A DNA stretch of 64,000 bases from Antitrichia curtipendula (taxonomy: Eukaryota > Streptophyta > Bryopsida > Hypnales > Leucodontaceae). Where the stretch lies: NCBI GenBank assembly GCA_951230915.1, contig OX579636.1:38623567-38687566 (forward strand), written 5' to 3'. The position numbers and the translations under genes were made by a program. Positions 28,720-48,259 of this stretch are shown here, in pieces; the stretch's first letter is position 1, and each line of letters opens with the position of its first letter. The notes beneath the pieces were generated by a model. It saw nothing but the letters and a program-made list of their open reading frames with translations. It made no database searches and was not told where the DNA came from.

Positions 28720-28818
28720 TTTACGCCCTAAAAGATTTGGAATGTTTTTAAAGAACCATTTTTCAATGCATTGCCCAAAATTGAAGATAACTTTATAAAC
28801 CTTGAACCATAAAAAAGT
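28720..28818 (+). mobile_element. left part of TTAA-family A1 element split by the giant hAT
   Basis: The start TTTACGCCCTAAAAGATT is a decayed A1 terminus. The stretch CCCAAAATTGAAGATAAC... aligns with 4547-4590 in the A1 copy at 4487-5282. The element resumes at 46346 on the other side of the hAT insertion and ends at 47152; together the halves make about 900 bp. Confidence 0.6.
28811..28818 (+). repeat. 8-bp target site duplication of giant hAT, left copy
   Basis: AAAAAAGT immediately outside the left terminal inverted repeat, identical to 46346-46353. Eight base pairs is the target duplication length of hAT transposons. Confidence 0.92.
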
Positions 28819-28831
28819 CAGGGTTGTCATA
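28819..28831 (+). repeat. left terminal inverted repeat of giant hAT
   Basis: CAGGGTTGTCATA. The match to the right end is 12 of 13; beyond this the two ends diverge, but both carry a subterminal CGGACGTCCCGGAC ... GGCAAACCGGA block (28851-28880 and 46289-46321) in the same orientation. Confidence 0.88.
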
Positions 28832-28975
28832 ACGGGCGAGTTAGGGTCATCGGACGTCCCGGACAGATGGGCAAACCGGACCGGACGGACGGACGGTCCG
28901 GACCAACTGGACGGCCTCAATTTCTCAAAGTTGTGGAATTTTTTTCAATGACACGTCAGCTTGGACAGTTGGATT

Positions 28976-29608
28976 CAGGGGCGGGGACTTCTTCAGTCAG
29001 GGCGCGAACGTTAGGGCGGGGACTTCTTCAGTCAGGGCGCGGACTTCGGCGCGTGAGGGCGCGAACTCCTTTAAGCAAGGCGGGGACATCAGTGTGAGCG
29101 TCAGGGCGCGGACTCCTTCATTCAGGGCGCGGACTTCAGCGCTTCAGGGCGCGGACTCATTGAATCAGGGCGGGGACTTCAGTGTGAGCGTCAGGGCGCG
29201 GACTCCTTCAAGCAGGGCGCGGACTTCGGCTAGCAGGGCGCGGACTCCTCGAAGCAGGGCGGGGACTTCTGTGTGACAGTTAGGGCGCGGACTCCTTCAG
29301 TCAGGGCGCGGACTTCAGCGCGTCAGGGCGCGGACTCCTTCAATCAGGGCACGGACTTCAACGCGTCAGGGCGCGGACTCCTTCAAGAAGGGCGGGGACT
29401 TCAATGTGACAGTGAGGGCGCGGACTCCTTCAGTCAGGGCGCGGACTTCAGCGCGTCAGGGCGCGGACTCCTTCAAGCAGGGCGGGGACTTCACTGTGAC
29501 AGGCAGGGCGCGGACTCCTTCAGACAGGGCGCGGACTTCAGCGCATTAGGGCGCGGACTCCTTCAGGTACGGCGCGGACCTGAACGTGAGTGGGAGGGCA
29601 CGGACGGG
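28976..29608 (+). repeat. left subterminal array of GGGCGCGGACT motifs, about 21-bp spacing
   Basis: About thirty copies of AGGGCGCGGACTCC / AGGGCGCGGACTTC or AGGGCGGGGACTTC, separated by short TCA-rich spacers so that starts are about 21-22 bp apart, near two helical turns. The motif points inward from the left end; the array at the right end points the opposite way. Clustered subterminal motifs are known transposase-binding sites in hAT and CACTA elements; binding here is inferred. Open frames 28867-29656 read the 7-residue echo of this repeat and are not genes. Confidence 0.9.
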
Positions 29609-30012
29609 CAATGGTGGATTAAATTTATGTGTTCTACTATATATATATATGTATAAAAAAAATTCGGAACAAATAGGAGACCCCACTGCATTAAAAAGAA
29701 CCAGTAACTGGAATGTATTTTACATGATTTCCCCACCAAGGTTTCCAGGAGGCCCATCAAATACAAAATACACAAAAAAAATACAGGTAGGCTGCAATGA
29801 TTGTGATAACCAAAATAGTTTATAAAATTCATGCATTGCAAAGTACAATATCAATACAATGAATCTATACTTCCAAAATACGCTCACTTTCTCTGTTTCT
29901 CATAGGTTATCCAAAACATTTTTTTGGCTTCTCGTCTATATTTCTTCCAATTGCTACAATTATCTTCAACTCTTAAAGATCCGAGATCTACCATCGATGC
30001 AACTCAATAACC
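29609..30012. other. 3' flank of transposase gene inside giant hAT
   Basis: AT-rich spacer between the left subterminal array and the transposase stop codon, with an (AT)n tract at 29637-29652. It presumably holds the transposase 3' UTR. No other gene seen. Confidence 0.5.
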
Positions 30013-33000
30013 TCAATTATTCAAACGACTCGACCTACGAACTTCTTGGGCACTTGGATTCGCTGCATTAGCATCTCGAACAACAACATCATCATCCTCT
30101 GGTGCCTCGTCATTGGCATCTTCATTGCTGTCATATTCATCTTCTGCTTCACCACTGTCGGTGGTCCAATGTTCCTCAACTTCCGAGTTTTCATTTCGAA
30201 GCTCTATAGTTGTTTGGCCATGAGTACGTTTGCGCTTCAACCTCTTGTGTCGTTGTGCGTTGGGGTCTTCTGCATCAGAATTTATAGTAGGCCCACCTGG
30301 AATTGTTCGAACAACAAATGCCGGAGTTGACCGGCTAGGTCCTGGTACGTATGTACTTAGGAACGGTTCTATCACCCTATTTGGATCTCTTGCTCCAATT
30401 CCGAGGGGTGAACGATTAGCATGCCTTGGCGATGATGCTTCTCCAATATGCAGATCTTCTGTTCGTCCTCGGCCTGTACTCCCTCCACGGCCTGCAGCTC
30501 TACCATGGCCTCTCGTCCGTCCACGGGCTTGTTGATATTGACCTACTTCATGATGAACGGAGGGCCGAGGGGCCACAAGTGGTCTACCACGTGAAACTCT
30601 TTGCAGAGTCAAATCAACATTTCCCACTGAGCCTAATCCTTCTTGAGAAGGTCTTTGGATGGCATTGGAAATTGTTTCTGAAGATGGATCTAGGAAATGT
30701 GGCACTTGTGTACCATGTTCAGAAATAGCAGGATGGCCTGCAACTGGAGCCGGTACAGGGGCAATGTCTTCGGGTGGTTCTACAAAAGCAAAAACATCAT
30801 CATGGTCCACATGCTCTGGATCAAAAGGCCTTCTCATGTTACCAGCCGGTTGATTTCTTGCAAAAGGGCGTGGCACTCTTGCATTTCTAACGTTTCTATC
30901 ATGCTGTCTTTCTAGAGCTCTAATGTTACGAGTTGCTGGTTCCACTCCCGTAGGGCGTGTATTGCCATCTCGATTGTGAGAAGATCCTCCATGATTTGGA
31001 TTCGCATTCCTCCCCCTGTTTCTCTCGCCATTTTCATGTCCACCACCATTTCCATTTCCACCGCCATTTCCGCCGCCATTTCCTGGAGGGAGGTTGTCAT
31101 CATCGTCGTTGTTGTTGTGGGAAATACCATCATCAACGTTATCGTCATTTGGATTGTCGGTCTCCAAAGAAGACGACAAAGCTGGGACTTCTACAACCCC
31201 TTCATTTTGAGGAAGTGGAGGTGAAAGACTACGACGAGGATTTGGTGGTGGTGGTCCCCTACGACCACGAAGGAGTTCCTCCTCTCCATCATCAGCATCT
31301 CCATAGTAGTTCCGCGCTTCTTCGAGGTGATCGGCTCCTTGCCTCCAAAGATCTGGGTTTGCCGGATACTCTTGAGCTCCTCGGTTGGCTTCCCCATCAA
31401 CCTCTTCTTCTTCCTCTGATTGCAGTGCGTCAAATTCCCGATTGCGTTCATTCACCGGGATCGGTCCAAGGGCATCTGGATCAGAATCCTCTGAGTACAT
31501 ATTCGCATCATACCAACGAACTGGATCGGCTTCTGGTCGTTGGCAAAGTACACGGCTATTGGTATAAATATATACCAGGGACTCTGCCTTTTCAGGGGCC
31601 AATCGATTTCGGATCTTATTGTGAACAAAGGAATACATACTCCAATTCCTTTCACAGGAGCTGGCGGAACACGTGAGGGATAAAACACGCACGGCAATTT
31701 TCGAAAGAGCCCGATCTCCAACCCTGTGCCACCATTGGTGGGGAAGCATTTGTGTCGCACGGATGTTGGGTGTCTCAGCTGGACTGTAGGGTCCAATACC
31801 CTCCTCGAATTCTGTTAATTCCGCCATCACATCATCAAAATTGACACCCAGGTTCCCCATCATGTTGCGGATGACTCTGTACAATGCACGTAGGGCAGTT
31901 CGATCTTCCCTGAGCGCCACGTTATCCAAGAGGTATGGATTCAAAAGGGCCGCTGCGTAGTGTGTATCTTCAAAAACCATGTGCCATCTTGCACTGAAAG
32001 ATTCTTCCAAAATGACTGCTATGTCATCACGTAAGCTGAAAGGTGGTTCTCTTAAAGAAAACACATGCCCTCGCAAATTGTGCATTACGAGCCACGCCCG
32101 ACCCATGGCTGGTTCTCGTCCATCAAACACACGCAAAGCCTTCAATACGTCTTCAGTCATGTACACGTAATTCACACACCGTTGCCAGAAAGCCACATCT
32201 TCAATGGTTCTTTTGACATTACGTGAAGTGGTAGCTGCTTGCGGTCCATTTTGTTCATTCCTTAGGGTATCAAAGAAATTTAGAACACGTGGGTGGTTAT
32301 TCAACCGCTCCAAGACTCCTCTAAGTTTCACCAATCGCTGCAACATGAGGAAATTACAAGCGAAGCGGGTTTCGCTAGGCACTACGAATTGCAGATTCGG
32401 ACTCAACTCGCGGAAAACCGACATGGTCGCATGATGGTTTCGAATGTATTGGCACAATCTTTTTGCCCTAGCAATTAAACCGGAAAATTCTTGGACTTTG
32501 GCCCAGTCTTCCAACATGAGATCTAGTGCATGTGCCATGCAACCTTGCGCAAAAATATGCGGGTATGTGTTAGTGATGTCCTTCAATGCGCCAAGCATGT
32601 TTGCTGCATTATCTGTGCACACTTGTGTTACATATTTGGGACCCACCTTCTCAATGTACACGTTCATTTGGTCCGATATGTAGCGCATGGTTTTTTTTTG
32701 CGAGGTAGTATCAATTGACCCCAAAAATACATCATCTGTGGGGCATGACATCATCACATTCATGAGGGGTCTCCGATTGACATCATCCCAACCATCGGTG
32801 CATATCGACACCCCGTAGTGCTTGACAGCAAATCCAACCTTCTCTTGAATCTGCTTCTCAATTTGCAACCTCCTCGGTTCAATCAAATTAGTCCTAAATT
32901 GATGGTAAGAAGGTGGACTGTATTCAAACTTCGCCACTGAGGTTGCTCTCACCGCTTCAATGAAGGCTGGATGCCTTGCCACATTAAATGGCACATTCGC

Positions 33001-33525
33001 TTCATAGAAAAAACTTGCCCACTTCTCATCCAACTCCTTACTCTTTGCAATGTTGAATGCGTCCGCCATGCGTTGTTGACGTAATGATCCAGATCTCGTA
33101 GAATTGGATCCAGCAAGACTATTTGACGTTTGTAGAATATCAATTCCTTTTGAAACGTTTGCCCCTTCTTCCGCTCTTCCACCATTGATCCCACCCGTCA
33201 CCTCATTTTCAGTGGCTTCACTTGAACTTGCAAGAGGAGTTGCTCTAGATGGCGCACTTTGAATTGGTTCTCCTTCATACATGTCCTCGACATCGATTCG
33301 TAGCGGGACAAATCCTGCACAATTGGCAAATCTATGTCGCACTGGACGAGGCATACTTCGACAAATTGACCTCTCCGATTTGGAGCCATATCCAAAGTGT
33401 GCAAAAGCACGTTCACGTTTGTAACTGAAGGTCCCAGTACAGAAAACACAAGTCACTTTAACCCTATTCTCCGTAAACTGAAGCCACGGCTCCCATTCCT
33501 TGGTCTGCTTCCTTTGACTTGCCAT
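30013..33525 (-). CDS. hAT-family transposase with long C-terminal extension
   Basis: Single uninterrupted frame of about 1170 codons. I start at the ATG at 33523-33525 rather than the upstream in-frame TTG. In order: an N-terminal BED-like zinc finger (CVFC near residue 27, His near 43); a DUF659/RNase-H-like core with the first acidic residue in CTDGWDD (about 244), the second in CTDNAANM (about 305) and the GCMAHALDLM Cys/His motif (about 328); and the hAT C-terminal dimerisation region with SASSCERNWS (catalytic Glu about 625). So all three expected acidic residues are present and the enzyme could be active. From about residue 670 to the end there is a ~500-residue low-complexity tail: acidic runs, a Gly/Asn-rich block, RG-rich repeats (about 960-1010) and a basic cluster HKRLKRKR, likely a nuclear localisation signal. 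Such a tail is not usual for hAT transposases. It is the only enzyme gene in the element that could mobilise it. Confidence 0.95.
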   Translation of the reverse strand: MASQRKQTKEWEPWLQFTENRVKVTCVFCTGTFSYKRERAFAHFGYGSKSERSICRSMPRPVRHRFANCAGFVPLRIDVEDMYEGEPIQSAPSRATPLASSSEATENEVTGGINGGRAEEGANVSKGIDILQTSNSLAGSNSTRSGSLRQQRMADAFNIAKSKELDEKWASFFYEANVPFNVARHPAFIEAVRATSVAKFEYSPPSYHQFRTNLIEPRRLQIEKQIQEKVGFAVKHYGVSICTDGWDDVNRRPLMNVMMSCPTDDVFLGSIDTTSQKKTMRYISDQMNVYIEKVGPKYVTQVCTDNAANMLGALKDITNTYPHIFAQGCMAHALDLMLEDWAKVQEFSGLIARAKRLCQYIRNHHATMSVFRELSPNLQFVVPSETRFACNFLMLQRLVKLRGVLERLNNHPRVLNFFDTLRNEQNGPQAATTSRNVKRTIEDVAFWQRCVNYVYMTEDVLKALRVFDGREPAMGRAWLVMHNLRGHVFSLREPPFSLRDDIAVILEESFSARWHMVFEDTHYAAALLNPYLLDNVALREDRTALRALYRVIRNMMGNLGVNFDDVMAELTEFEEGIGPYSPAETPNIRATQMLPHQWWHRVGDRALSKIAVRVLSLTCSASSCERNWSMYSFVHNKIRNRLAPEKAESLVYIYTNSRVLCQRPEADPVRWYDANMYSEDSDPDALGPIPVNERNREFDALQSEEEEEVDGEANRGAQEYPANPDLWRQGADHLEEARNYYGDADDGEEELLRGRRGPPPPNPRRSLSPPLPQNEGVVEVPALSSSLETDNPNDDNVDDGISHNNNDDDDNLPPGNGGGNGGGNGNGGGHENGERNRGRNANPNHGGSSHNRDGNTRPTGVEPATRNIRALERQHDRNVRNARVPRPFARNQPAGNMRRPFDPEHVDHDDVFAFVEPPEDIAPVPAPVAGHPAISEHGTQVPHFLDPSSETISNAIQRPSQEGLGSVGNVDLTLQRVSRGRPLVAPRPSVHHEVGQYQQARGRTRGHGRAAGRGGSTGRGRTEDLHIGEASSPRHANRSPLGIGARDPNRVIEPFLSTYVPGPSRSTPAFVVRTIPGGPTINSDAEDPNAQRHKRLKRKRTHGQTTIELRNENSEVEEHWTTDSGEAEDEYDSNEDANDEAPEDDDVVVRDANAANPSAQEVRRSSRLNN

Positions 33526-33784
33526 TGCGTTCAACGATCCAAGGATATTTTCTTCCGTCTTCCTCCTCCTTTATATTGAAGTTAAAAGGATCCAAGATAT
33601 ACCAAACACAGTATCAGTAACAGCAGTTAGCGCTACTCCACTGCTTGAACTGATTTTGACATCACCTCAGCAGCAAACTAGGGCCATCTGCCACCCAAGT
33701 AGACTCACAAGGAGCTCAAAATGAATTGAAGTCCAAAAAATAGAGGCCAGGTGACAAATGTGGGGAATGCTGGGTCTTCCTTTC

Positions 33785-33793
33785 CTTTATATA
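33785..33793 (-). promoter_or_regulatory. TATA box of the transposase gene
   Basis: Reads TATATAAAG on the minus strand, about 260 bp upstream of the transposase ATG and immediately downstream of a GC-motif array (33806-34015). The same arrangement stands before both cargo genes. Confidence 0.7.
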
Positions 33794-33805
33794 CATAGCG
33801 GTTTA

Positions 33806-34015
33806 GGGGGCGCGGACGTCTTCGTCACCAAAGTATAGGGCGCGGACTTGAAGTCAGGGCGGGGACTCTAAGTCAGGGCGGGGACTCTAGGGCGGGGACT
33901 CGAAGGCAGGGCGCGGACTCCACGGCGGGGACTCGAAGGCAGGGCGGGGACTCGAAGACAGGGCGGGGACTCCAGGGCGGGGACTCGAACGCGCGGACTC
34001 CAGGGCGCGACTCCA
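33806..34015 (+). repeat. GGGCGSGGACT motif array upstream of transposase
   Basis: About twelve copies of GGGCGGGGACTC or GGGCGCGGACT, directly upstream of the transposase TATA box. The position suggests a promoter-proximal regulatory array as well as, or instead of, a transposase-binding site. A related smaller cluster lies at 34209-34380. Confidence 0.88.
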
Positions 34016-34208
34016 GTATAGAAATGCAGGTGTGCTCATGGGGATGCATTGAAAAGTACGTTGACCTTCGCCATCCTTAATGGTCTGGGAAGATTGTGTC
34101 CCTCCTTTTCATGGAAAAAGGGGAACATTAAATGTCGTCACGCCCCCAAATTCGTGGGCAAAGAAAATGGCTTTCACTCCCCAATGTTTTCGCTGAATGG
34201 ATTGTGCT

Positions 34209-34380
34209 AGGGCGCGAACGCAGGGCGCGGACTCCGGGGCGGACAATTCACACAAATGGAGGAACTTGAGAGAGCGCAGCTCAATCTCAGACTCCATGGA
34301 ATGGACTCAAAGTCAGGGCGCGAACTCGAAGTCAGGGCGTGGACTTGAAGGCAGGGCGGGGACTCCAGGGCGGGGACGTA
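34209..34380 (+). repeat. second GC-motif cluster, part of an internal duplication
   Basis: Scattered copies of GGGCGCGGACT / GGGCGGGGACTCC. The cluster and the sequence after it (to about 34590) are repeated at 36940-37285, including TACTCGTCCAGCCAGGAAGC and GCCTAAGATTTGGAAGAAA with small changes. Confidence 0.8.
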
Positions 34381-34639
34381 CTCGTCCAGCCAGGAAGCAT
34401 GACTTTGAAATGCGCTTGTGCTTGACATCCTTCAACCGCCTTTTCCTTAGAGCGGGGGAAGCATTAATTTTAGCCTCAACAAATTCTGACAAGACAATGA
34501 AAGCAAGATGCCAAATAAAGAGCTCCACGGCCTAAGATTTGGAAGAAACTCCATGAAAGAGCATGTCCCCTTCGTTGTGATGAAAGGTATTAGGAAAACT
34601 CTCCTATCCCAAGTTTGTGCCATTCATTCGAGGTCGGAT

Positions 34640-35580
34640 CTTTCTCTCTCCTTTTTTTTGGGCTTCATTCCTAGAACTCTCCCATTCCAACTTATTCTAA
34701 TTTTTTTTCTTTTGGTTGAATCATTTTTTTTTCTATTTTGTTCCTAAAACTCTTCCATCTCAAATCAAAGCCAAATGTTCATTTTTGGTTCCATCATTCC
34801 TTTCCCTATTTATTTGGATCATTCCTAGAACTCTCCCATCCCAATTCATATTTTTTGGGTTGTTTTGTTGAATGATCTCCTTTTCTAATTTGTTTTGCTT
34901 CAAAACTTAGCAAGTCTCTTTTGTAGTATTCTTCCAATACCATGCCGATCTTTGTTTGTTGAATCATGCCCTTTCCTACTTCATTTTTGCTTATTTCTTG
35001 AAGTTCTACCACCTCAATTCAAAGCCATAATTTATTTGTTCCATCATTCTCTTTTTTTTCGTTTTTGTTTCTGCTTCATTTCTAAAATTCTTCCATTCCA
35101 CCTCAATGCCCCTTAGTTTTTTTGGCTACATGAACTCCTTAAGCACTTTGTTTTCAACTCAATGCCATTTTATTTTTGTTCCACCATTCCCTTTCCTATT
35201 TTGTTTGGCTTCATTAATTCCTAAAACTCTTTAATTCCAATTGCATGCCAATAGTTATATGTAGAATCATTCGATTCTCTATTTTTATATACGTTCCTAT
35301 TTTTTTCCTTCTTTAATTCCTAAACTCTTTTATTTCAAGTCTATGCCAATCTTTTTTTATTTAGTCATTCCCTTTCCTATATTTGTTCTTTTCTTCGTTC
35401 CAAAAACTCTTCCATCCTAAATCATTGCCATTCTTGATTTGTTGAATCATTCCCTTTCTTATCACTTTTGCTTCATCCATAAACAAATTCTTCCATCCGA
35501 AGTTCCGAACTCAATGCCATTTGTTTTTTAATCCATTATTCATATTCCTATTGATTTTTTATTTCATTCTTGTCTTAGAA
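34640..35580. repeat. pyrimidine-rich degenerate tandem block 1 inside giant hAT
   Basis: Phrases close to CATTCCCTTTCCTATTTT, TTCATTCCTAAAACTCTTCC and ATCCCAACTCAATGCCAT recur in the same order roughly every 80-100 bp with heavy divergence. No gene. The same material is at 37540-39080 and 42600-43830. Confidence 0.65.
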
Positions 35581-35674
35581 CAATGAGAAGTTACAAGTTA
35601 TAGTTTGTTCTTCATGTAAAGGGATTCATTTTTTGGAATACTTGGCACAAGGGACTCTTTTTTAATTGAATGTA

Positions 35675-36909
35675 CAGTACCCTCCAAGAACTCTTGCAAC
35701 CCCATGTCTAGTTCTCATCCGAGTAGTTTGATTACAAATCAAACTCATGATAGGTAAATTTAGATATTTGATTGAGATTTTTTGCCCCAAACTAGGTGAG
35801 TCATGCACCTTGTTGTAACTCATTCCACTTCTTAGAAAAATCTTTCTTTGTGAAAGGTGGTTGATTTTGAAAACACTAAGCTAAATTTAAAGGGACAATG
35901 CTAATTTGAAAATTTCATTGTAGAAGATCATAGGTAGTGGATTTCAACCGGTTTTGCGGTTGAGAGGATCAACATTAGTGCATGCATGCTTCTAGTGATT
36001 GTTGCTTGTAGACATAGCCTAGAAGTTTTGTGAGAAAAAATTAATGTTTGTCTAAAATATTGTATATATGATGTTGCTAGAAGTTCTATAAGCAAACTTG
36101 TGAAGTTCTAAGCAATGTTGGTCAACTTTGCACCATGACATAATGTAAAATTCATTGAGTGGCCACCAAATTCTTTTGACCTTAATCCTATAGAAAATTT
36201 ATAGAAGCAAGTCAAAGATCGAGTACAAAAAAGATGTAGATCCTACAACAATGACTAAATGTGGACATTAGTGAATATGGCATGCAAGGATATACCTCAA
36301 GAAAGTATTCAAAAGTCAATTTCTACGATGCCAAACCAAATCAAAGCTAAGATAGCAGCTCAAGGTGGTAGTACTTGATGGTAGTAGGTGTAACACTTTG
36401 TTGCAAAGTCGTTGCTAGTCAGCGAGACATACTGTAAAATTCATGATATAGTAGGCTTCTACAATACCATAGCTTCCTAATGATATCCTATTTGACAATA
36501 TTTATTCAAATGTTTTTGAATACATGACCTTTGCCTTGAACATGTATGAAAGGAAATTGCAAAATACATTAAAGCCAAATAGACAAAAAATTTACCTACA
36601 TAGTGTGCATCTTTGTAATATGAAAGATGTCAACAATGATGTTTCCTAAATATATACGCAATCAGATCTTAAAAAATCATCATACACATTTTCTAATTAA
36701 TTATTATGTAATATCGTGAAAAATAAATAAAATAATTCACCAAAAATGGAGTTTCTATTTTTAGACATTGAAATTTCATATGTTGGTGAAGGTTCCATAA
36801 AGCAATAGATTTAATAGGATACTTTTCATAGTATGTTCTTAAAATGGAGTTAAAAAGGAAAATTTGAAGGACTTCATAATGGGGTTGCAAGACTTTTTGG
36901 AGGGTACTG
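35675..36909 (+). mobile_element. decayed Tc1/mariner element nested in the giant hAT
   Basis: Ends CAGTACCCTCCAAGAACTCT and (reverse complement) CAGTACCCTCCAAAAAGTCT form inverted repeats matching at about 27 of 29 positions, flanked by TA on both sides as expected for this superfamily. The plus-strand interior carries the transposase remnant at 36100-36378. The TIRs are better preserved than the gene, which suggests past non-autonomous movement. Confidence 0.85.
36100..36378 (+). pseudogene. Tc1-like transposase remnant (C-terminal part)
   Basis: One frame reads EWPPNSFDLNPIENL followed by a TAG where Trp is expected, then KQVKDRVQKRC, another stop (TAA) and QESIQKSISTMPNQIKAKI, ending at TGA 36376-36378. 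The NPIEN(L/W) motif with its Glu is the third catalytic region of Tc1-type DDE transposases. The upstream part is too decayed to read. The stops show that it cannot make an active enzyme. Confidence 0.85.
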
Positions 36910-36915
36910 TACAAT

Positions 36916-37071
36916 AGGGCGGGGACTCCATGGTGGGGACTTCAAATAAGGGTGGGAACTCAAAGTCAGGGCGGGGACTCTAGGGCGGGGACTCAAAGTC
37001 AGGGCGGGGACTCCAGGGCGGGGACTCGAAGGCAGGGCGGGGACTCCAGGGCGGGGACTCCAGGGCGGGGA
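36916..37071 (+). repeat. GGGCGGGGACTCC motif array without a gene
   Basis: About nine copies of the promoter/terminus motif, immediately right of the Tc1 insertion. By analogy with the other internal arrays it may be the promoter array of a lost minus-strand gene, or simply part of the duplication of 34209-34590. Confidence 0.85.
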
Positions 37072-37539
37072 TTAACTCGTCCAGCACAGGAAGCAAGACT
37101 TTGAAATGCGACATCCTTGAACCGCCCTTTTCCTTGGAGAGTGGGAAGCATTAATTTAGCCTCAACAACTTATTTTGGATTCTGACAAGACAATGAAAGC
37201 AAGATGCCGAATAAAGAGGTCCATGGCCTAAGATTTGGAAGAAAATCCATGGAAGAGGATGTCTCCTTTGTTGTGGTGAGAAATGTTTTTCCTTACTTCT
37301 TCTAACACTTCAAACTACTTTGAACAAACATATCATTTAGGTTGTAAAAAACAATGTAAATTCTTTGATTTAGGAAATGTTTAGGACACTTTGAGGAAAT
37401 ATTTAGTAAATGTTTAATCAATATTTTTGAAATGTAGTGTACTAGATAAAAGGATAAAACTGCATTGTATTTGAAATGAAAGAAATAGTAGGGGAGTTAT
37501 TTAAAATTCTAGGCCTTCAATATGCAACTGCAATTTTTA

Positions 37540-39080
37540 ATTCCATCATTTCCTTTCCTAATTTTTCGGGCTTCATTCCTAAAAGTCTTCCATTCTAAGT
37601 CACTGTCCTTTTTGGGGGGGCATCATTCCCTTTCCTATTTTTTTCCAGGAATTAGCATAGGTCTCCCATCCCAACTTGTCAATTGTATGGCATTCTTTTT
37701 GGGTTGGATCATTTTGTCTTCTTTTTCTGTAGATGCTTCATTTGTAAGACTCTCCCATCCCAAATTATATTTAATTTTTTTGGTTTAGTTGAATCATTCC
37801 TTTTTCTATTTTGTTCCTAACAATCTTCCATCCCAATTTTCAATTCATCTTTTTTTGTTGAATCATTTCCATCTCTATTTTGTTTTCGCTTATTTCCTGA
37901 AGTTCTCCCACCCCAAGTCCCCAACTCAAAGACACCATTTTTTTCTTCATTAATTCATAGAACTCTTTTATGTGAACTCCATGCCAATATTTATTCATCC
38001 AACTCACTTCCTTTCCTATTTTTTTTCTTCATTAATTCCTAAAATTGTTTAATCCAACGGTAAGCATTTTTCTTTTGCTTATTTCCTTTCCTATTTGTTT
38101 TATTTATTAGCACAATTATTCCATCCTAAGGGATTCCCTAAATTTTTTTCTTTATGGTACGAAATTGAAGTCTATCCATTCACTTCCCATTTTTCATATG
38201 ACATAAGAGGTAATGTGAAACAATATTTGTTTCATATTTCTTTCACATTTGTTTGTTTTTATTAGCAACATTTAAAATGCACTTACATTTCTTTCCCTTC
38301 CTAATCTTTGTAAAATTCATTAGCAAAATGCCAAAATGGCTCCATTCCATCATGAGCCCGAAGGCCATTTAAATAATTTAATTTTTGTATTACCTAAGCC
38401 CTTCTTATTTTTTGTTAGTGATTTGCAAGATTATTGTATCCCAAATAGCTGCCTTTTTTTTGGGTATATCATTTACTTCCTAATTTTATTTGAACTTCAT
38501 TTGCAACATTATCCCATGCCATCCCAATGGCCAATGCCCTTTATTTTTTGTATATCATTCCCTTTCCTATTTCTTTGGGATTCATTCCCTTATCAAATGT
38601 TTCTTGGGATTCATTCCCTTTCCTTTTTGGGGGGGATTCTTTCCCTTTCCTAATTTTTTGGATTCATTTCTTTTCCAATTTTTTTTAGATTGATTAGCAA
38701 AATTGTTACATCCCAAGTTATATAAAAACTAAATGGCATTATTATTCTCTTCCTAATTTTTCTCCAACTCAATGCCAATTTTTGGCATTCAGTTTACCTT
38801 CCTACTTTTTTTGTGCTTCATTAGCAAAATTGCTCCATCTAAAATTCTCAATCAAAGGCCATTTAAATTTTGTATTCTCTAAACCCATTCTAATTTTTTT
38901 GGGCTTCATTTGTCACGTTATTCTATCCCAACTAAATGCCATTCATTTTTAAGTAGGTAATTACTTCCCTATTTTTTGCTTTTCTCTATCATTCCTTTGC
39001 CTATTTTGCAAGTGAATTTTTACCTATTTCAATCCCTTTTGGGGGGGAGTTCCATCATTCCTTTGCATATATATATTTCC
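37540..39080. repeat. pyrimidine-rich degenerate tandem block 2 inside giant hAT
   Basis: Same diverged phrases as block 1 (CATTCCCTTTCCTATTT, TTCATTAGCAAAATTG, CATCCCAA, AATGCCATT), recurring about every 80-100 bp. Open frames here are short Phe/Leu/Ser-rich by-products of the repeat. Confidence 0.65.
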
Positions 39081-39476
39081 ATCAAGGCATTAATGACATT
39101 TGAAAAGCGTTTTTTCCCCTAATTTCAAGTTCGGGCCACTTCGTGCCTTCGTGGTCCGTCCAACCTTCCCTACTTCTATTCATTGAGTGGAAATTGGGAA
39201 TGAATTGTACTCCAATTCAATGACATTTCATTTCATGGTATAAATAATTTTAATATGTATGAAGTCCACAAGTCCATTCAAATTTCAAATGAGTACGTGC
39301 AAAAAATAAATGAAGTCACTTTGGGCAAAATCATTCAAAACAAAATCAAATATATTTCATATGCATAGTGTAATACAAAGTAGGAAAGTATATAAGCCTA
39401 TATAATATTATAGTGCTAGGAAAATAAGTCTTCTAAGAAAACCTAAGCTCACTAGCTAAAACACTCAAAACTATAC

Positions 39477-41774
39477 TTAGTCCATGTTCATTGGACTACT
39501 TGCACTGCCACTTGGTCCAGCCTCATTGTCATGTGTCCCGGCGCGAATTGGAAGGTCTTCATCTGTTCCCAAACGAAGTCTACGAACTGCGGATCGAGTT
39601 CTCCTCGCTGGTCCGTCTTCCTCTAAAAGAGCCTTCAATATTTGTGATTGCTTGAGGCTTTGAAGACATTGGAGAGTTCCCGGGCTATGTTGTTCCAACA
39701 AGAAGTCCATCCCATCATTTCGAAAGGTTTCTCGCCACTCTGACTCCGATAGTTGTGCAAGTTCAGCAGGGTCTGGCATGTCAATGTCTTCCCCCCTCCG
39801 CATCCCCTGGTCGTCAGTAATGCAAACTCCATCAACGCCCCACAACCATCCAAGAGGATGAGGTCCAAATTGGAAGTATTCTTGTGCCTCATTCCAATGC
39901 CCATTGAAGCATTGGAAGAAGAATTTTCGTTGTCCTTGGCTAAAGTTGTCCTTCAATGGAACCAAGTGGTGGCACACCTCCACAATTTGAGCCGGATCTT
40001 TTTCCCAACCCCATTCGGTACAAAGTTGTTGTTTGCCCAACGAATGGATGTTCAATTTCCAACTCCACACCAAGTCTATTCCCCACTTCTAAGAATGATC
40101 AGGGGCATTTTCAGCATTGAATTCCCAATGCGGTGGCATATAGGGAACTAATCCAAACAACTCATACAAGCGCTTATGGAAAGGAGCCTTGCATAGTGAA
40201 CAACGTCGGCGGACAATCATCAAGCTAATTAGGCAGAATGGGTGGTACAAATGTTCACACGTGCCTAAGTGCATTCCACCTTCCGGGCCAAATGGATTAA
40301 GGCAAATGGGACATGTAGTTCCATCGTGTACGAAGGTTGAAGGGTTTGGCTACAGTAGTAATGGATTGCTTTCATGGTCCACGGCAGAGCCAACTTCATT
40401 CTTGAAATCCCAATCATGTTTGGACCAGTCGATGGTTTTTTGTCCACCAGCAATGTCAATGGTTGCCATTTCATCCATGTTGAAATGATCATCCACCAGG
40501 GCCCACAATGTCAAACCAAAAACCCTCTTTTGATTGTGTGCGCCGTAATTGTGGTCAATTTTTTTGAATTCCTCCACCATTTGCCTAGTCCTGTCAACAC
40601 TGAAGACACATGCCAGCTTCCATTGGTAATACTGCTCCATCAATGCATGCAATTGATTTTTCAATGTCAAATTCATTGCAAGCGCGTCCGTCAGTTGGAT
40701 GCTTTGGTCCACTGGCCCTGCTGCACCTACATTTGCGGGTAATTCTCCAAAGGACAAAGAATCATCCTGAGTATCCATTGTTGCACCAACTTCTGTAGGT
40801 TCCAATGGAATTTGAGAATTATTTGAAGGCCCTTGCGCTTCCCCTCATGGATCTTGACCACGATTGGCCAATGTTGCTGCCTCAAGAGCGTGCCGAAGTA
40901 CCTCCATCTCACGTTGTTGTTGATTGATAATGTTGTCTTTCTCTTGCATGTCTTCTCTCATTTTGTTAACATCATTATACAAAGAATGCAATTCCTCATT
41001 CTTCTCATTCACTTCAATCAACAAACCCTGGATTCGGTTTGTAGCAGCTGTAACATCCACAATTCCTACCACTGGTTCGTCAATAGGTGGCACCTGTTCC
41101 TCCACAACATTTTCGTGTAAAACCTCAGCAGTTTGACGCGAAGCCCTCCTCTTTTTAGCTCGTAGTAGTTGAGTTCTATGGCTGATTACAACTGGTACAC
41201 GAGATCCATCTGAGTCGTCGTCCGTAGATGAGTCTTCAGTGTCATATCTTCGTGGTGCTTGAACCTGCGTATTTGTTTTCCCTAGACCACCTTCCGGGTA
41301 TCTTTTTACCCCCCTTGGAATGAATCCATTTGCTGGAGTAGGAATATTGACATTTTCTCCCATTTGCTTCAAAGTTGACCAATCCACTCTCTTGTTCAAC
41401 TTCAGCTCCGCATAGACCCCTCGTGCAAGGAAAAGTTGCACTTCATTGCGTATGACGTTTGAGAGAGTTTACAACACTTGGTACACCTCAATGCATCGGT
41501 TTGTAAACTCTTCGTCCAGGCAGTATTTTAAATTTGCCTTGTAGAAGCGTCTGTGACAGTTGTGTCGCTCTTCCGGGAACAACTTGTCTATGTGGCACCA
41601 CTCAATATAATTGGCGCAGTCATCATATGTCCATGGTTCAAGCACGCCCTCCCACCCCCTGAATGCAAGTTTGTCAGGGTTTCGTAGAACATGTAGTCGC
41701 TTACGATGTTTGTTTCTGGCTCGTGGTCGGGTCCTATCTCGTTCTTCCTTGGTCATTCTTGGTGGTGTATCCAT
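39477..41774 (-). pseudogene. cargo gene 1: coiled-coil, RING-H2 protein with four in-frame stops
   Basis: One reading frame runs 766 codons from an ATG at 41772-41774 to the stop at 39477, with protein-like sequence throughout, but is cut by TAA (41469-41471), TGA (40845-40847), TAG (40350-40352) and TAG (40089-40091). There is no frameshift. Codons 1-101 are basic then aromatic-rich; about 243-303 is a predicted coiled coil (ELHSLYNDVNKMREDMQEKD); about 488-530 is a RING-H2 finger: CPIC, then CEHLYHPFC, then CSLC, with all eight metal ligands in the order C3H2C3. The C-terminal part is Trp-rich, then acidic. RING-H2 proteins are commonly E3 ubiquitin ligases; the target is unknown. All four stops can come from CAA, CGA or CAG by one C-to-T change, which fits deamination of methylated DNA. 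No family for the rest recognised. Confidence 0.8.
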
Positions 41775-41902
41775 TTTTGTAGAAAAAAGCGAAATCCTCC
41801 ACGTGGCAATCAAGTAGACCCCGCACAACGCTCACAACCAGCTCAATGAAGAGATGGAAGGCTGAGAGTATGCAGGGCGGAGACAAATGAGGCAGGGACG
41901 GC
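41775..41902 (-). other. presumed 5' UTR of cargo gene 1
   Basis: Short interval between the TATA box and the ATG, too short and too AT/GC-neutral to hold another gene. Confidence 0.4.
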
Positions 41903-41910
41903 CTTATATA
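41903..41910 (-). promoter_or_regulatory. TATA box of cargo gene 1
   Basis: TATATAAG on the minus strand, about 130 bp upstream of the ATG, with the GC-motif array 41928-42070 directly upstream. Confidence 0.7.
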
Positions 41911-41927
41911 GTTGCAGCTGGGGGACG

Positions 41928-42070
41928 CCAGGGCGGGGACTCCATCGAGTTGGGGCGGGGACTCCTCCGAGTGGGGGCGGGGACTCCACCGAGAGGGGGC
42001 GGGGACTCCAGACAGTGGGACTGGGACTCCAGACAGTGGGGGCGGGGACTCTAGAGAGTGGGCGCGGACA
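41928..42070 (+). repeat. GGGCGGGGACTCC motif array upstream of cargo gene 1
   Basis: About seven motifs at roughly 22-26 bp spacing (spacers such as ATCGAGTG, ACCGAGAG, AGACAGTG), same plus-strand orientation as the transposase array. This is the second example of the array, TATA box, gene order. Confidence 0.88.
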
Positions 42071-42599
42071 TGATTTAAATATACGAAGTTAATGTGCTTA
42101 GACATATTTCTATTTCCTAAGGTAGAAGGCTCGAAAAGAGTTTTGGCATTAAGAACTGCCCCTATAAGTGGTTGTAGAATGGACATGATGCAGTTTTCAA
42201 ATTGACCTCAAAAGACAAAAAGGAAGGAAGGAAAAAAACATTCTTTATCACAAGAGCCAATCATTGTCTTTGCTATCCCCATTTTTCTTTAGAATTGCAA
42301 TATGAAGGACGTAAGAATATAAATAGGGACCTAGGACACATCTCCTTTGAAAATTTATAATTAATTCAATAATGTTTAAAAAAATATGAAACCGATTGGG
42401 CTACATTCCTCATCAATTTTTCTTGGTTTCAAGGATGAGCTTAAAAATATTCCCATGTAAAGAAATACTGTAAAAATGCGAACCAGCCCTTAGATGAGTG
42501 ATTTCTGAGCCTTCTACATTACTCCATGTTCTAAGTGACTCTAGCAGTCCATATTGAGATTTAATGTTAGATCATATCACTCTAACACCCCAATAATTT
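42071..42599. other. spacer inside giant hAT
   Basis: AT-rich spacer between the array of cargo gene 1 and degenerate block 3. Nothing recognisable. Confidence 0.4.
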
Positions 42600-43830
42600 C
42601 CATATCCTAATCAATCCACCATTCCATATTTTTTTTGGGTGTTAAATTGCTTCATTATAAGTTTGTAACCCCCAAACCACTTCCATGTCCAAATCACTCC
42701 ACTATTCCATAGATTTTTTGGATGTTACATTATTTTATAGTGACACCCAAATCATTTCCATATAAGAAAGCACTCCACCATTCATATTTCTTTTAATGTT
42801 AGATTATTTAAGTCCGTAAAAATAATTCCCCCCGCTAAAAATCCTAAAATAAATTGGTATGCTTTTCTAAAGCTTTGGTCACTCCATCTCCCCTTTTAGA
42901 CATTGATTTTTAAAGCACACTTCCATTTCAAGTGATTGCCATAATTTTTCTGGTGTTTTCATTCTCTTCCCTATTTTGTGGGCATCATTACCAGAAAAAA
43001 TTATTTGAATTCAATGCCACTTGTGTAAGGTGGAATGATTTTTTTTTCCCGCTATTAGCAAAATTGTTCCATCCCAACTCGAGGCCATTTATTTTTGAAT
43101 GATCATTCCTATTAATTTCATTTTTTGTTTTTATTAGCCAAGCTCTTTCATCTAAAGGAAATTCCATTTACTTTTTGTGGTAACGCAAATCTATCCGAAC
43201 TAAATGGTAAATTTTTTGGGGTGTTAGTTGAAATCACTTTGACACACTATTTTTTGTGGGTCTATGTCTCTCACAAAATTATTCCATACCAACCCCAAGC
43301 CATTTCGGATTTGTTCCATGATTTCCTTTCCTATTTTTTTTTCCATTAATGAACAAAGGAGTTCCCATGCCAACTCTATGCCATTCCTTTTGGCTTGGAT
43401 GATTATCATTTTTTGTTCGCTTCATTCCTAAAACTCTCCCATCCCAACTCATAGTTATTTTTTTTTTTTTTGTTCAAACATTCCATTTTCTATTTTGTTT
43501 TCGTTCATTAAGTGAGAAGACTATTTTATTCGAATTCATAGTTTAGCTTTATTCGTTCAATCTTTCCTTTCCCTACTTAATTTTTTTCTAATTTACTAAA
43601 GTTCTTCCACCTCAACTCAAAGCCATTAATCTTATTTTTGGGTTCCATCATTCCCTTTCCTTTTCTTTTTTTCGTTTTATAATTTTTAATTTTTTTGAAC
43701 CTTTTTTTGTGTTCATGATTAAAATTATCCCAATGTACTTCAATGTTATTCTTTTTTTTGTTGGATCATTTATTTTATTTTGGGGGGGCTTCATTAACTT
43801 CTAAAACTGTAAAACATAGACATAGTGAAA
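42600..43830. repeat. pyrimidine-rich degenerate tandem block 3 inside giant hAT
   Basis: Continues the same diverged phrases as blocks 1 and 2 (TTCATTCCTAAAACTCTCCC at 43420, CATTCCCTTTCC at 43650). Lies between cargo gene 1 and the 3' end of the kinase-like gene. Confidence 0.6.
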
Positions 43831-44110
43831 AGATAAAGTGTATGTATTTTTATACCAAACTATTGCATTCACTATTTTTATAAAAGTTTTATCATCAATT
43901 CATAGAACCCATAAACATGCAATGAGAAAGAACAATGACATAGCAGGTTAATATATTCACATGAGATCTTGAATGTACAATGCATCCGACTTCATATATA
44001 TTTGAGGTGTTCGGCAATTGCGAAGTACATACACATGGTCCTCTATGAGGATGATTTACCTTCTATGCCTGAACTATATGCTAAGCTACAAAAAGTAAAA
44101 AAACTAAATA

Positions 44111-45691
44111 CTATATACAATAACAACATTCTGGCATAGTCCAACAGTGGGGGGCCTTCTTCAATGCGTCGAGAACATCTGGCACTGACGTCCTTTCACT
44201 CACATCCTCTTTTACGAGGCTTTCCAATTTGATCCTGAGGTTCTGATACTGCTCTGGATTCTTCGTTGTAAAGTATTTGGAGCCCCACTCTTCCTTCCAA
44301 ATTTGTGCTGCTATCCATCCGGCCGCATATGCATCAACTGCCATGGAATACAAATGCATTTTTTGCATGGCCTCAATTGAATTTGCCGAACCTTGCTCTC
44401 CGTATATATAAAACAATTCAGGGGCTGCAAACCTTCGCATTCTCTTCTCCTTCACTAGGATGTCCTTGTTGGGAAAGCCATACCTTGACGGCTCCTTCTC
44501 TACAGCTCGGCTAGAAAGTCCCCAATCACATATCCCTATATACACCGTGTGCTCTTTATAATCATCAAAATGGAGCAAAATATTGGATGGAGTGATGTCG
44601 TTGTGCATGTACTGCGCATCGTGGCATTTCCCCACAATGACAAGCAAAGAAAGTGCCAAGTTCACTCGGTTCCGTCGGCAAGTTGCAACCCATGTAAGCT
44701 CCTCTTTTGTCAACCCTATACCTTGTTCATGCTTAATCTCATCGACATCCAATGTTTCGCTTACTTTCGAATTGTATTTGGATAAGAAAGAAATTAGAGA
44801 GCCTCCATTCCACCATAACGTGTAGCCTTCCATCATTTTAGGGTGGAGGTACGCAATTCGAATGATGCCAGGATGTCTCACTGGACACCCGCCCGCCTCA
44901 TTGATGATTCCTTGGCGCTTCTCCTTTTCATTTGTGGTTTTCAAGCTCTTCCCAGCAAAAAATATCCAACTAGGAATGCTCTGAAGTTTTGTAAGCATCA
45001 CCTTCCTCACGGTCCCATATGAACCAACGGCACTTTGTTCCGGCATGGGAATGACTTTTACTGAACTTTCAAGCCACTTGAATGTTCCACTAACACAATG
45101 AGCTGTTATGGTGTCTTCAATTGTCGCTTTCCAAGGTGTTTGCTTTTTCTTACGTGATGAAGAAAATTGTTGAGCAAAGTTTTGAATGATTTTCAACTTT
45201 GCAACCACCTCTTTATTTTGTGTGTCCCAATCGCTACCATCTTCTTTCTTCCCCATGTGGTAACACCAATTTGACACTATATTGGTTGTGAAGGCAACCA
45301 CCTGTTTATCCAGCCAGTCTTGGTGCAACCAATAATCAGAGAAATTGTTGAATTTCTCAGATGCTTCAAACTTTGACTCCAGCTCCGTTCTCAGGTCCCT
45401 CGTGAGTTTGTGGTACCCTTCTTCGTTGAGCGCCACATACTCCCTGGTCAACATAGTCGTACTGCGACGAGTGTAGAACACCACAACTATTGCTCTCCCT
45501 TCAACTATGAATTCATGTGGAGGCATATGGGGATTGAGTGCTTTCTTGCGTTTCTTTTGGCTTGATGAAGAAGGGTTCGATGAACCTGAGGCCATCAAGT
45601 TGTCCGTGGATGGAATTACCATCTCACCGACATCATCTAAATCTACAAACATAGGTTTTTTCTCCGCCGATGCACTCCCTTCCCCCGCCAT
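44111..45691 (-). CDS. cargo gene 2: protein-kinase-like protein
   Basis: Intact frame of 526 codons from ATG 45689-45691; the frame extends upstream only with a GTG start, which I do not use. The N-terminal ~210 residues (Ser-rich, with KKRKK, a possible nuclear signal) match nothing I know. The C-terminal half has a protein-kinase fold: glycine loop VGSYGTV (about 222), candidate ATP-binding Lys in FFAGKSLK (about 248), catalytic loop HNDITPSNILL (about 363, HRD replaced by HND but Asp and Asn kept), DWG in place of DFG (about 389), and AAPE (about 423). Activity is therefore possible but not certain. It stands between its own TATA/array module and degenerate block 3, and is the rightmost gene of the giant hAT. 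Its role in the element is unknown; it could act on the transposase or on host chromatin, but nothing in the sequence shows this. Confidence 0.85.
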   Translation of the reverse strand: MAGEGSASAEKKPMFVDLDDVGEMVIPSTDNLMASGSSNPSSSSQKKRKKALNPHMPPHEFIVEGRAIVVVFYTRRSTTMLTREYVALNEEGYHKLTRDLRTELESKFEASEKFNNFSDYWLHQDWLDKQVVAFTTNIVSNWCYHMGKKEDGSDWDTQNKEVVAKLKIIQNFAQQFSSSRKKKQTPWKATIEDTITAHCVSGTFKWLESSVKVIPMPEQSAVGSYGTVRKVMLTKLQSIPSWIFFAGKSLKTTNEKEKRQGIINEAGGCPVRHPGIIRIAYLHPKMMEGYTLWWNGGSLISFLSKYNSKVSETLDVDEIKHEQGIGLTKEELTWVATCRRNRVNLALSLLVIVGKCHDAQYMHNDITPSNILLHFDDYKEHTVYIGICDWGLSSRAVEKEPSRYGFPNKDILVKEKRMRRFAAPELFYIYGEQGSANSIEAMQKMHLYSMAVDAYAAGWIAAQIWKEEWGSKYFTTKNPEQYQNLRIKLESLVKEDVSERTSVPDVLDALKKAPHCWTMPECCYCI

Positions 45692-45874
45692 AACGAAAAG
45701 AAATTGTTCAATGGGCCTCTGCAAGCACAAAAGCCCCGAAAATTTGAAAAAAACCGGGTCACATATGAGGGCCAAGCCCACCACCCACCAAACTCACTCA
45801 CATAGGCCGTGGGGACGAACTAGTGTGTGAGGCGTAGGGCGCGGACTTGGCAAAGAAATGAGGGCGGGGACTCG

Positions 45875-45883
45875 CTTTATATA
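45875..45883 (-). promoter_or_regulatory. TATA box of cargo gene 2
   Basis: TATATAAAG on the minus strand, about 185 bp upstream of the kinase-like ATG. Two GC motifs lie between it and the ATG (45836-45874) and the right subterminal array lies upstream. Confidence 0.7.
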
Positions 45884-45899
45884 GTTCCCCCGCTCCTCA

Positions 45900-46193
45900 A
45901 GTACCCGCCCCGACACGTGCCGTCCACGCCCCGTCTTCCTCACGTTCCCGCCCCAGTCGCTGGAGTCCTCGCCCCCACGCAGGAGTCCCCGCCCCACTCT
46001 TTGGAGTCCCCGCCCCACTCTCTGGAGTCCCCGCCCCCTCTCACTGGAGTCCCCGCCCCCCACTCACTGGAGTCCCCGCCCCCACTCACTGAAGTCCCCG
46101 CCCCCACTGTCTGGAGTCCCCGCCCCTACTGGATGGAGTCCCTGCCCCCACTCAATGGAGTCCCCGCCCTGACTCTGGAGTCCCCGCCCTGCA
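45900..46193 (-). repeat. right subterminal GC-motif array of giant hAT
   Basis: About thirteen copies of the motif in reverse orientation (GGAGTCCCCGCCCC on the plus strand), at about 24-bp spacing. So the motif points inward from both ends of the transposon. The array also serves as the upstream region of cargo gene 2. Confidence 0.9.
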
Positions 46194-46332
46194 TGTTCCT
46201 AAATCCACGTGGCGTCCATGTGGCCTACTTTTTTGGTTTCATAAAGTCAACTTTGTGTTGACTGTATCGGGTGGGTGAGACCTCTAACGGACGTCCCGGA
46301 CGGACGGACAGGCAAACCGGACGTCCATACAG

Positions 46333-46345
46333 TATGACAACCATG
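46333..46345 (-). repeat. right terminal inverted repeat of giant hAT
   Basis: Reverse complement reads CATGGTTGTCATA, one mismatch from the left end. Followed by the target duplication AAAAAAGT at 46346-46353. Confidence 0.88.
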
Positions 46346-47152
46346 AAAAAAGTGTAGTAGACTACTATGACAATGTGTTGAAAAAATTTCAGCCAATTTG
46401 ACTACATGGATTGAAGGATTATAACATTTGAAGTAAAAAAAAACGTTAGATTCCTTTCAAATAGGGCTGTTAGACTTCAAGCCCTCTTGGAGTAAAATTG
46501 ATGAATTTGAATCTTTCCACCATTGAGTTTTAAATCTTGTTACGTACATTCATGCAGAATTTTAGAAGCAAATACATACTCTAGCTTAGTCTAAATCACC
46601 CTGCAATGCAAAGAGGTTAAGCGAACTAGTCATTTCTTGATGATTTTTTGTGCAATGAAGAAATTTTTTTAATTGAAATTCACATGGTGAAAATTTAGAG
46701 ACAAACATTTGAATTATATGGGAAATATTTCAAGAACTTGGACTTCATAGATAACAAAGCTTGAAGTTAGAAAAAAATATTTTTTTCTGCCTAAATTGCC
46801 CCATCATAGGTAACAAAGTTTGACTCCTCTTAGAATGTAATTCGAGAACTAAAATTTGTTTTTTTGTAAAACTTTATGCCATATTTTAATAGTTACATAC
46901 AACCAAGTTTCAAAAGTAGATGAAGATTCTAGAAAAAATTGCTCAAATTGTTGAAGGTACCAAATTCTTTTGGAATAGCATAACTTTTTTATTTATGCAC
47001 CCAATTGGAAAAAAAATATGATCCTACTAAAAGGGTACATGTTAACACCTTGTATCAAGATTTTATGAACTTCCAACCAAAATTGACATCATATGATCCC
47101 ACCCAAGTTTTTAGGTGTCCTTTAAACAAACATTTGGTCCATTAGGGATTAA
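46346..47152 (+). mobile_element. right part of TTAA-family A1 element split by the giant hAT
   Basis: Continues the A1 sequence begun at 28720-28818 (ACAATGTGTTGAAAAAATTT, then CACCCTGCAATGC at about 46599) and ends TTGGTCCATTAGGGATTAA, with TTAA at 47149-47152. It shows that the hAT inserted after the A1 element. Confidence 0.8.
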
Positions 47153-47342
47153 ACTCTCTTTGTAACCTTTCTTTGATTCACAGTGAACCACATCAATGCC
47201 TTTTTTTATATTGCATTTGAATTTTTGTTCAACTTTGAAATGGTAATTAACAACTTTGGATAGTCACATAGAATCTATCTGTTTTTTTCCCTCGATTGCC
47301 ATATTGATCCCACATTTTTGTAATTCTCAATGCAATTAAGGA

Positions 47343-48259
47343 TTAACCCTTAAAGGACCAAACTTCAATGTTTTGACACATAGCGATTTGGGGCAGCTCA
47401 ATATGAATGGAATTTTTATTTATTTTTCTTTGAAATTTTCATACAAAATGTGCCCAAGAAATAGCTTTAAGGCCCCAATTTTTTTTTATAATTTTTGACT
47501 ACATGGTTAAAAAGTTATTGTATGCTATGTTTATTTTTTTCTAGACCGAGCAGTCCAAACAAATTAGATTTTTTTTTTTGCTTAAACAAAAATTTGAATT
47601 TGATTTTCAAGATTGATATACACATGGAAAGCTTTTAATCATTCCATTTTGATTAATGAGGTGAAAGTTATGAGGAGTAGTTTTAGTTTGCGGACACTTA
47701 TGGATTTTTTACTCTAAAATAAACTTTGAAGTTCTTTATTTCAATCAGTTTCAATAGTTTTGGGAAAAAAATAAAAACATAGAATGAATATTGCTTATTA
47801 AAACATTACAACCATTGGGATTGGCATTTTTCAATTCTATAACTAATTTTTCAACAATTTAGTATTTTGAATCATTTTCCACTCTTTTCTATTTACTATT
47901 TTTTTCCTATATGTTGTACAATTCCAAATGGTCTAAAGTTTTTCAAGCATGTAGCCAATAATGAATCCAAAGAAGCACCACCAACATGGACATTTTTTCA
48001 TACAAATGTGACCTTGTGAAGTGTGCTGCCCTATTTTTTGCAAGGCCATAAAAAGGATTTTTGTCACTTCAAACGCTAATATCTTGCAATCTATAATCTA
48101 AATTTTTTTTCTACATCTTTTCAAACAAGTGCACTACAAGATTATATGGTTATATGTATCCACTTTTTATATTTTTTTCTAAAATTTGGTACTTATACTA
48201 GAAATGGCAGTTTGGGATTGTTTTTGGTGAAAATATAGTAAAAAACATTTAGAGGCTTC
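47343..48259 (-). mobile_element. TTAA-family element, type A2, inverted, near full length
   Basis: The left end is TTAACCCTTAAAGGACC; the right end near 48259 is decayed. The interior is the reverse of the 943-bp A2 elements at clearly lower identity, so this is an older copy. Confidence 0.7.

Follow-up and report, generated by a model that had tools for sequence, protein, structure and literature searches.

The hAT transposons are generally known to be small and to carry a single gene, that for the transposase, maize Ac being a familiar plant example. The grapevine hAT families with a stated length span 2 to 5.5 kb, and Hatvine-6, with captured sequences, is given as "variable" (PMC2528002, available part). 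In VANDAL elements, the protein VANC binds oriented, copy-number-variable arrays of short motifs in the non-coding parts (PMC5735166, available part). Here, we analyzed a window of 64,000 nucleotides from Antitrichia curtipendula (assembly GCA_951230915.1, contig OX579636.1, forward-strand positions 38,623,567 to 38,687,566) and found at window positions 28819..46345 a giant hAT element of 17,527 bp, delimited by its ends and by the limits of homology and designated family A below, in which a transposase gene is accompanied by a protein-kinase-like gene and a RING gene. This element resembles the grapevine hATs (Hatvine-1 to -11) in having a hAT transposase with a dimerisation domain, short ends, and 8-bp duplications, and differs from them in its extra genes, since the available part of the grapevine report does not describe a hAT that retains a kinase or RING gene beside its transposase (PMC2528002). 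Judged from its sequence and copies, the kinase-RING pair is not a chance pair, a set of gene fragments, or variable cargo but belongs to a conserved three-gene module.

The element opens with the 13-bp terminal inverted repeat CAGGGTTGTCATA (28819..28831, forward) and closes with CATGGTTGTCATA (46333..46345, reverse), which agree at 12 of 13 positions, lie within the 5- to 27-bp range given for hATs (PMC12506042, available part), and are bordered by the 8-bp target-site duplication AAAAAAGT on the left (28811..28818) and right (46346..46353). A search of the window for the 13-bp end with at most two mismatches should give 1.54 matches by chance and gave two, so that the end matches alone are not beyond chance, and the ends were therefore checked in other copies in the window's own genome (400 Mb, 303 contigs). 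The first genome search yielded at least 39 transposase copies (the best 39 of 1946 candidates) with 97 to 100% identity. Eleven copies were read, namely, that of the window and ten others with 20 kb around each, and the homology of the window to them ends at 28819 and 46345, give or take 1 to 3 bases. Both ends were recovered in nine of the 11 copies, eight of which have exact and mutually different 8-bp duplications (AAAAAAGT, CTTTTACT, CTTTGAAC, GTTTGAGT, GTCGTAGA, CTTCTAAA, CATTCAAG, and CCCTCGGC), and the duplication of the ninth matches at 7 of 8 positions (GACGAGCC/GACCAGCC); the remaining two copies yielded the left end only (C2:19.13 Mb) or neither end (C6:0.37 Mb). Moreover, the left repeat was identical in all 10 left ends seen and the right repeat in all 16 right ends, with the single mismatch between them fixed (CAGGG on the left, CATGG on the right). 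The three genes occurred in the same order in 8 of the 10 fetched copies, including one with a 3.4-kb insertion, in which the kinase runs past the fetched stretch, and another lacking a non-coding part; in the other two, matching breaks off inside the fetched stretch, at the RING gene (C6:0.37 Mb) or before the kinase (C2:19.13 Mb). With three genes and lengths of 14,837 to 18,158 bp (six elements measured), these elements exceed the typical hAT size of a few kilobases with one gene. The initial annotation had read the stretch as a single large hAT insertion with 13-bp ends and an exact 8-bp duplication, and it had proposed a search for further copies with such duplications and the same three genes; ∼100 listed copies have the three genes, and the stop of homology at both ends, the colinear copies, and their different duplications uphold that reading. 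Thus, 28819..46345 is one mobile unit, inserted between its 13-bp ends with 8-bp duplications.

The transposase frame (30013..33570, reverse strand) comprises 1185 codons from stop to stop, or ∼1170 amino acids from the first ATG (33525), and is intact in the window, as had been claimed, with Pfam matches to DUF659 (E value, 2.9e-35; 121.6 bits versus a cut-off of 34.7) and Dimer_Tnp_hAT (E value, 1.7e-8; 34.5 bits versus a cut-off of 21.4). It is open in 7 of the 11 copies. The window transposase contains the stretches CTDGW, CTDN, CMAH, and CERNW, which we take to be the hAT catalytic acidic residues and CxxH motif, and the other 10 copies contain them likewise, with scattered changes around them. 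The tyrosine recombinase captain of Starships (DUF3435) was not matched in the six window frames scanned. By its transposase, its ends, and its duplications, the element belongs to the hAT superfamily. Among the 39 transposase copies of the first search, 32 matched in one piece and 7 in two; the latter matches break near residues 830 to 848 in slightly longer frames (1195 to 1199 amino acids) and reflect variation in the length of the low-complexity middle region.

The kinase-like gene (44111..45691, reverse strand; 526 amino acids from the first ATG) was identified by its Pfam Pkinase match, motifs, and ATG, and is intact in the window (560 codons stop to stop; E value, 1.1e-9; 38.5 bits versus a cut-off of 31.7). 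It is open in four of the eight copies in which the whole gene was read, and 37 of the best 78 kinase copies listed contain no stop. The catalytic motifs K, HND, DWG, and APE are kept in eight aligned family-A copies, save one neighbouring residue, and also in the relatives read, except for APK in place of APE in one of them (L042). No relative of the kinase was found among solved structures at an E value of ≤0.01 (the best was VRK1 at 0.035), NCBIfam gave weak matches far below cut-off, viral contigs held no relative of the kinase or transposase, and prokaryote contigs held none of the kinase. The RING gene (39477..41774, reverse strand) is a 784-codon open frame in intact copies, encoding ∼765 amino acids from the first ATG. 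In correction of the initial annotation, four in-frame stops break the RING gene of the window copy. The 784-codon frame is uninterrupted in 3 of the 10 copies with the whole or nearly whole gene read, and in 26 of the 115 listed family-A RING matches the open-frame value is 784 with no stop in the matched piece. In the copy at C4:10.8 Mb, all three frames are open. The RING zinc ligands are unchanged in all 10 family-A copies and in the one family-B gene read (family B being a diverged set of relatives described below), and, like the RING-H2 pattern itself (see below), the rest of the protein has no Pfam match reaching cut-off. Structure prediction without an alignment was unreliable for both proteins, with mean pLDDT values of 31.8 (kinase domain) and 43.9 (RING piece).

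To place the three genes relative to each other across the genome, lists were drawn from short queries, namely, 91 residues of the kinase (the best 150 of 1064 candidates), 91 of the transposase (the best 150 of 1030), and 86 of the RING protein (the best 150 of 1321). Since each list holds the best 150 matches, all copy numbers are lower bounds and those of family B are incomplete. Family A comprises at least 113 kinase, 109 transposase, and 115 RING matches. Among the 109 listed A transposases, 108 have a RING gene, 107 a kinase, and 106 both, on the expected side and strand; the extra genes, whose possible occurrence apart from the transposase had been named as a check, are thus nearly always found beside it. 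Conversely, 108 of the 113 listed A kinases are linked to a transposase, and all 111 family-A RING-kinase pairs within 20 kb lie on the same strand. The three genes of family A, which contain no introns, all lie on one strand. The completeness of the list matters here: an earlier list of the best 78 kinases linked 24 of 39 transposases, and the longer list linked 38 of 39. Six of the 109 A transposases listed are also near an A kinase in a different arrangement, which was taken as belonging to a neighbouring element.

A second family, B, was separated from A by identity, with core identities to A of 69 to 73% (kinase), 81 to 88% (transposase), and 81 to 87% (RING) and a few intermediate matches. 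Among the 41 listed B-like transposases, a RING gene accompanies 23, a kinase 22, and both of them 18, the order always being transposase-RING-kinase, and all 22 listed B RING-kinase pairs are on opposite strands, indicating that the kinase is flipped relative to family A. For 22 of the 37 B-like kinases, a B-like transposase adjoins, versus 0.34 expected, with at most 3 in 2000 random placements that used rough guesses for some chromosome lengths. These 37 include a kinase with 57% identity (L043), and all listed matches were kept in the counts. The matches on contigs C173 and C218 are of intermediate identity (kinase, 79 to 82%; transposase, 86 to 91%; RING, 93 to 95%) with a B-like opposite kinase strand, and possibly represent an intermediate family; in the counts given here, B takes in their kinases and transposases, and A their RING genes. 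L043 (C6:8896800-8898600 of the same genome) is a third full-length open kinase relative, with a ratio of replacement to silent change (dN/dS) of 0.263 to A and no related transposase nearby among the matches listed, and could either stand for a third family or be a gene on its own. In addition, genes of families A and B lie within 35 kb of each other at C3:32.34-32.37 Mb, C6:14.24-14.28 Mb, and C9:20.20-20.23 Mb, which suggests nested or neighbouring insertions.

Copies within family A form a star-like burst with a mean pairwise difference of 1.3 to 1.7%, and 76 to 81% of the changes are C to T or G to A. The C-to-T decay occurs in CG, CHG, and CHH contexts, which fits plant-type methylation without proving it. 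Replacement and stop changes in all three genes agree with a neutral simulation, with one exception in the transposase, where shared replacement changes are fewer than expected (P = 0.018). Thus, decay sets in once a copy has inserted, and the selection that the three open frames reflect predates the burst. Because of the star-like burst, dN/dS inside family A is uninformative, and the genes were compared with diverged relatives by the simple method of Nei and Gojobori. The A kinase is 69 to 70% identical to two B genes (dN/dS, 0.125 to 0.147; dS, 1.41 to 1.60), and the A RING protein is 64% identical to one B gene over 644 codons (dN/dS, 0.167; dS, 1.47). Within the latter, dN/dS is 0.114 in the last third, which contains the RING, and 0.222 in the middle, the least conserved part (54% identical between A and B). 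As read from these codon comparisons, silent change clearly exceeds replacement change in both extra genes despite the limits of the method, and the kinase and RING protein are under long purifying selection between the families.

The non-coding parts of the element share one motif, GGGCGSGGACT, of which the window contains 56 exact sites, all within the element, against an expectation of 0. With one mismatch allowed, six elements carry 61 to 87 motifs each, with none in their fetched flanks. The motifs cluster at the left end in forward orientation (28979..29559), at the right end above the kinase in mostly reverse orientation (45837..46189), above the transposase (promoter module 33788..33995, reverse), above the RING gene (promoter module 41903..42070, reverse), and in one internal array (36917..37059, forward), such that the arrays at the two ends are inverted relative to each other; array length varies between copies. 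The initial annotation had noted shared promoter modules, and these proved real in the two copies checked (the window and C4:10.8 Mb), with an array above a TATATAA box for each gene. The box lies 268 bp (transposase), 136 bp (RING), or 192 bp (kinase) before the ATG, and the nearest motif begins 25 to 31 bp above it, at 25, 31, and 27 bp, respectively, in the window. The kinase module, which is at the same time the right subterminal array, has two further motifs downstream of its box and before the ATG; one such motif belongs to the RING gene in the C4:10.8 Mb copy. The internal array has no gene attached and is missing from one of the six elements measured; together with its surroundings (36916-37279), it resembles the transposase promoter region (33830-34600) at ∼80 to 88% in parts and may be what is left of a fourth gene since lost, or else a promoter duplicate.

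Considering that the trio stays together in ∼100 listed copies and recurs in a diverged second family, the two extra genes have the appearance of permanent transposon components and not of chance passengers. We consider it probable that the element is an autonomous hAT with several genes, in which the kinase and RING protein would help the expression or movement of the element. The earlier view of the extra genes as stable holds for two families (dN/dS, 0.12 to 0.17), but their designation as cargo does not, and "accessory genes" fits better, as genes kept in this way act like transposon parts, unlike the exchangeable cargo of Starships. As to how they might act, one of the element's proteins (the transposase or the RING protein; this is a guess) may bind the arrays at both ends and at the three promoters, while the RING protein, as a putative ubiquitin ligase, and the kinase could modify host factors of silencing or transcription, or else the transposase, which would render methylated copies expressible and movable. 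On that basis we tentatively propose, as a possibility that we rate below the general reading, a class of autonomous multi-gene hATs with their own kinase-RING signalling pair and one family-specific motif at ends and promoters, which would overcome host silencing and whose module, retained by at least two families, has withstood inversion of the kinase gene. Several observations weigh against these readings. The RING-H2 pattern (zf-RING_2; E value, 5.3e-5) scored 23.9 bits, under the Pfam cut-off of 27.3; the relatives used for dN/dS were picked for the length of their open frames, and dS approaches saturation; no listed partner accompanies 15 of the 37 B-like kinases or 19 of the 41 B-like transposases, and these may be fragments or have partners beyond the best 150 listed; and family B is known here from gene matches and coding stretches, the one B RING stretch read, mainly coding, being without the GGGCGSGGACT motif.

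Among the other explanations, the strongest, although unlikely in our assessment, is that both accessory proteins act in transposition itself, with the RING protein binding DNA and pairing the ends and the kinase regulating the transposase, and with no anti-silencing function. The comparison is with TnpA of Spm/CACTA, which binds DNA and keeps the two ends joined. The inverted arrays at the two ends, the conserved trio, and the poorly conserved middle of the RING protein, as might be expected of a specificity region, are in line with such a role; however, other hATs move by their transposase alone, and the arrays lie equally above every promoter. More doubtful still is that the kinase and RING genes are host-beneficial cargo spread by the transposon, as has been proposed for some fungal Starship cargo. 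Purifying selection between families and the stop-free kinase copies (37 of 78 listed) would be expected of such genes, but all three genes decay alike and neutrally after insertion in family A, the same two genes recur without variation between copies, and no set of copies is clearly free of the transposase among the matches listed (108 of 113 A kinases are linked). It is very improbable that the genes are mere passengers, host fragments picked up by transduplication in the manner of Pack-MULEs or grapevine Hatvine-6. Capture of gene pieces is known from several superfamilies of plant transposons (PMC2528002, available part), but here the frames are full length, intronless, and open, the same pair occurs in two families, and dN/dS is 0.12 to 0.17, and these counts refute this origin for A and B unless all open relatives are recent captures. 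Finally, chance pairing of ends, nested insertions, or misassembly, suggested by the two 13-bp matches expected by chance, is refuted to near certainty by the nine copies with both ends, eight of them with exact duplications, and by homology that is colinear through the element.

Around the element, a near-identical 75-amino-acid reading frame occurs on both sides in the same direction (23950-24177 and 49869-50096), which suggests a repeat or an earlier duplication of the sequence surrounding the insertion. A dispersed repeat lies near both element ends (27141-27512 and 47342-48000) and is also present inside the C1:54.4 Mb copy as a ∼0.9-kb insertion (73 to 79% identity; two copies matched). 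Ten flanking frames of the window had no Pfam match above cut-off, and the whole window had no Rfam match; a weak BED zinc-finger match at 6333-6668 (forward; E value, 0.0085), below cut-off, is perhaps a decayed piece of a transposase.

A three-gene hAT kept through long divergence means that transposons of the cut-and-paste type are able to maintain several genes in a stable arrangement, which in this case includes, in accessory roles, a kinase and a putative ubiquitin ligase. The open copies in the same genome allow a direct test of whether and how a transposon uses phosphorylation and ubiquitination in escape from silencing or in its own movement. Among the titles and abstracts listed by searches of the open-licence PMC literature, none described a hAT of plants that carries both a kinase and a RING gene; a description may exist elsewhere, for example in a repeat database. 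The main text of a 2026 review of plant transposon gene capture, in its available part, lacks "hAT" and "kinase" as whole words (PMC13317346). The systems nearest in size and in having extra genes (ToxhAT, Starships, Teratorn, and large CACTAs) belong to other superfamilies. For instance, grapevine Cactavine, a large CACTA with a ULP domain, illustrates that plant DNA transposons can reach 11 to 25 kb and that some of them have gained a further protein domain (PMC2528002, available part), but it makes 3-bp duplications. The fungal ToxhAT/ToxTA is likewise a DNA transposon, of 14 kb, with an added gene; however, it has a 2-bp TA duplication and 74-bp ends, and its authors argue for a non-autonomous Tc1/mariner element (PMC12506042, available part). 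Fungal Starships and fish Teratorn are giant transposons with genes beyond the transposition enzyme, but the former use a tyrosine recombinase (PMC12506042, available part) and the latter combines a piggyBac-like enzyme with herpesvirus genes in 41 to 182 kb (PMC6431247, available part). By analogy, VANC of VANDAL elements is the nearest functional parallel: these elements of the Mutator superfamily in Arabidopsis also pair an accessory gene with dense, oriented, family-specific motif arrays of variable length, although the superfamily differs, the accessory protein is neither a kinase nor a RING protein, and the anti-silencing function established for VANC is one that the kinase and RING protein of the giant hAT may share.

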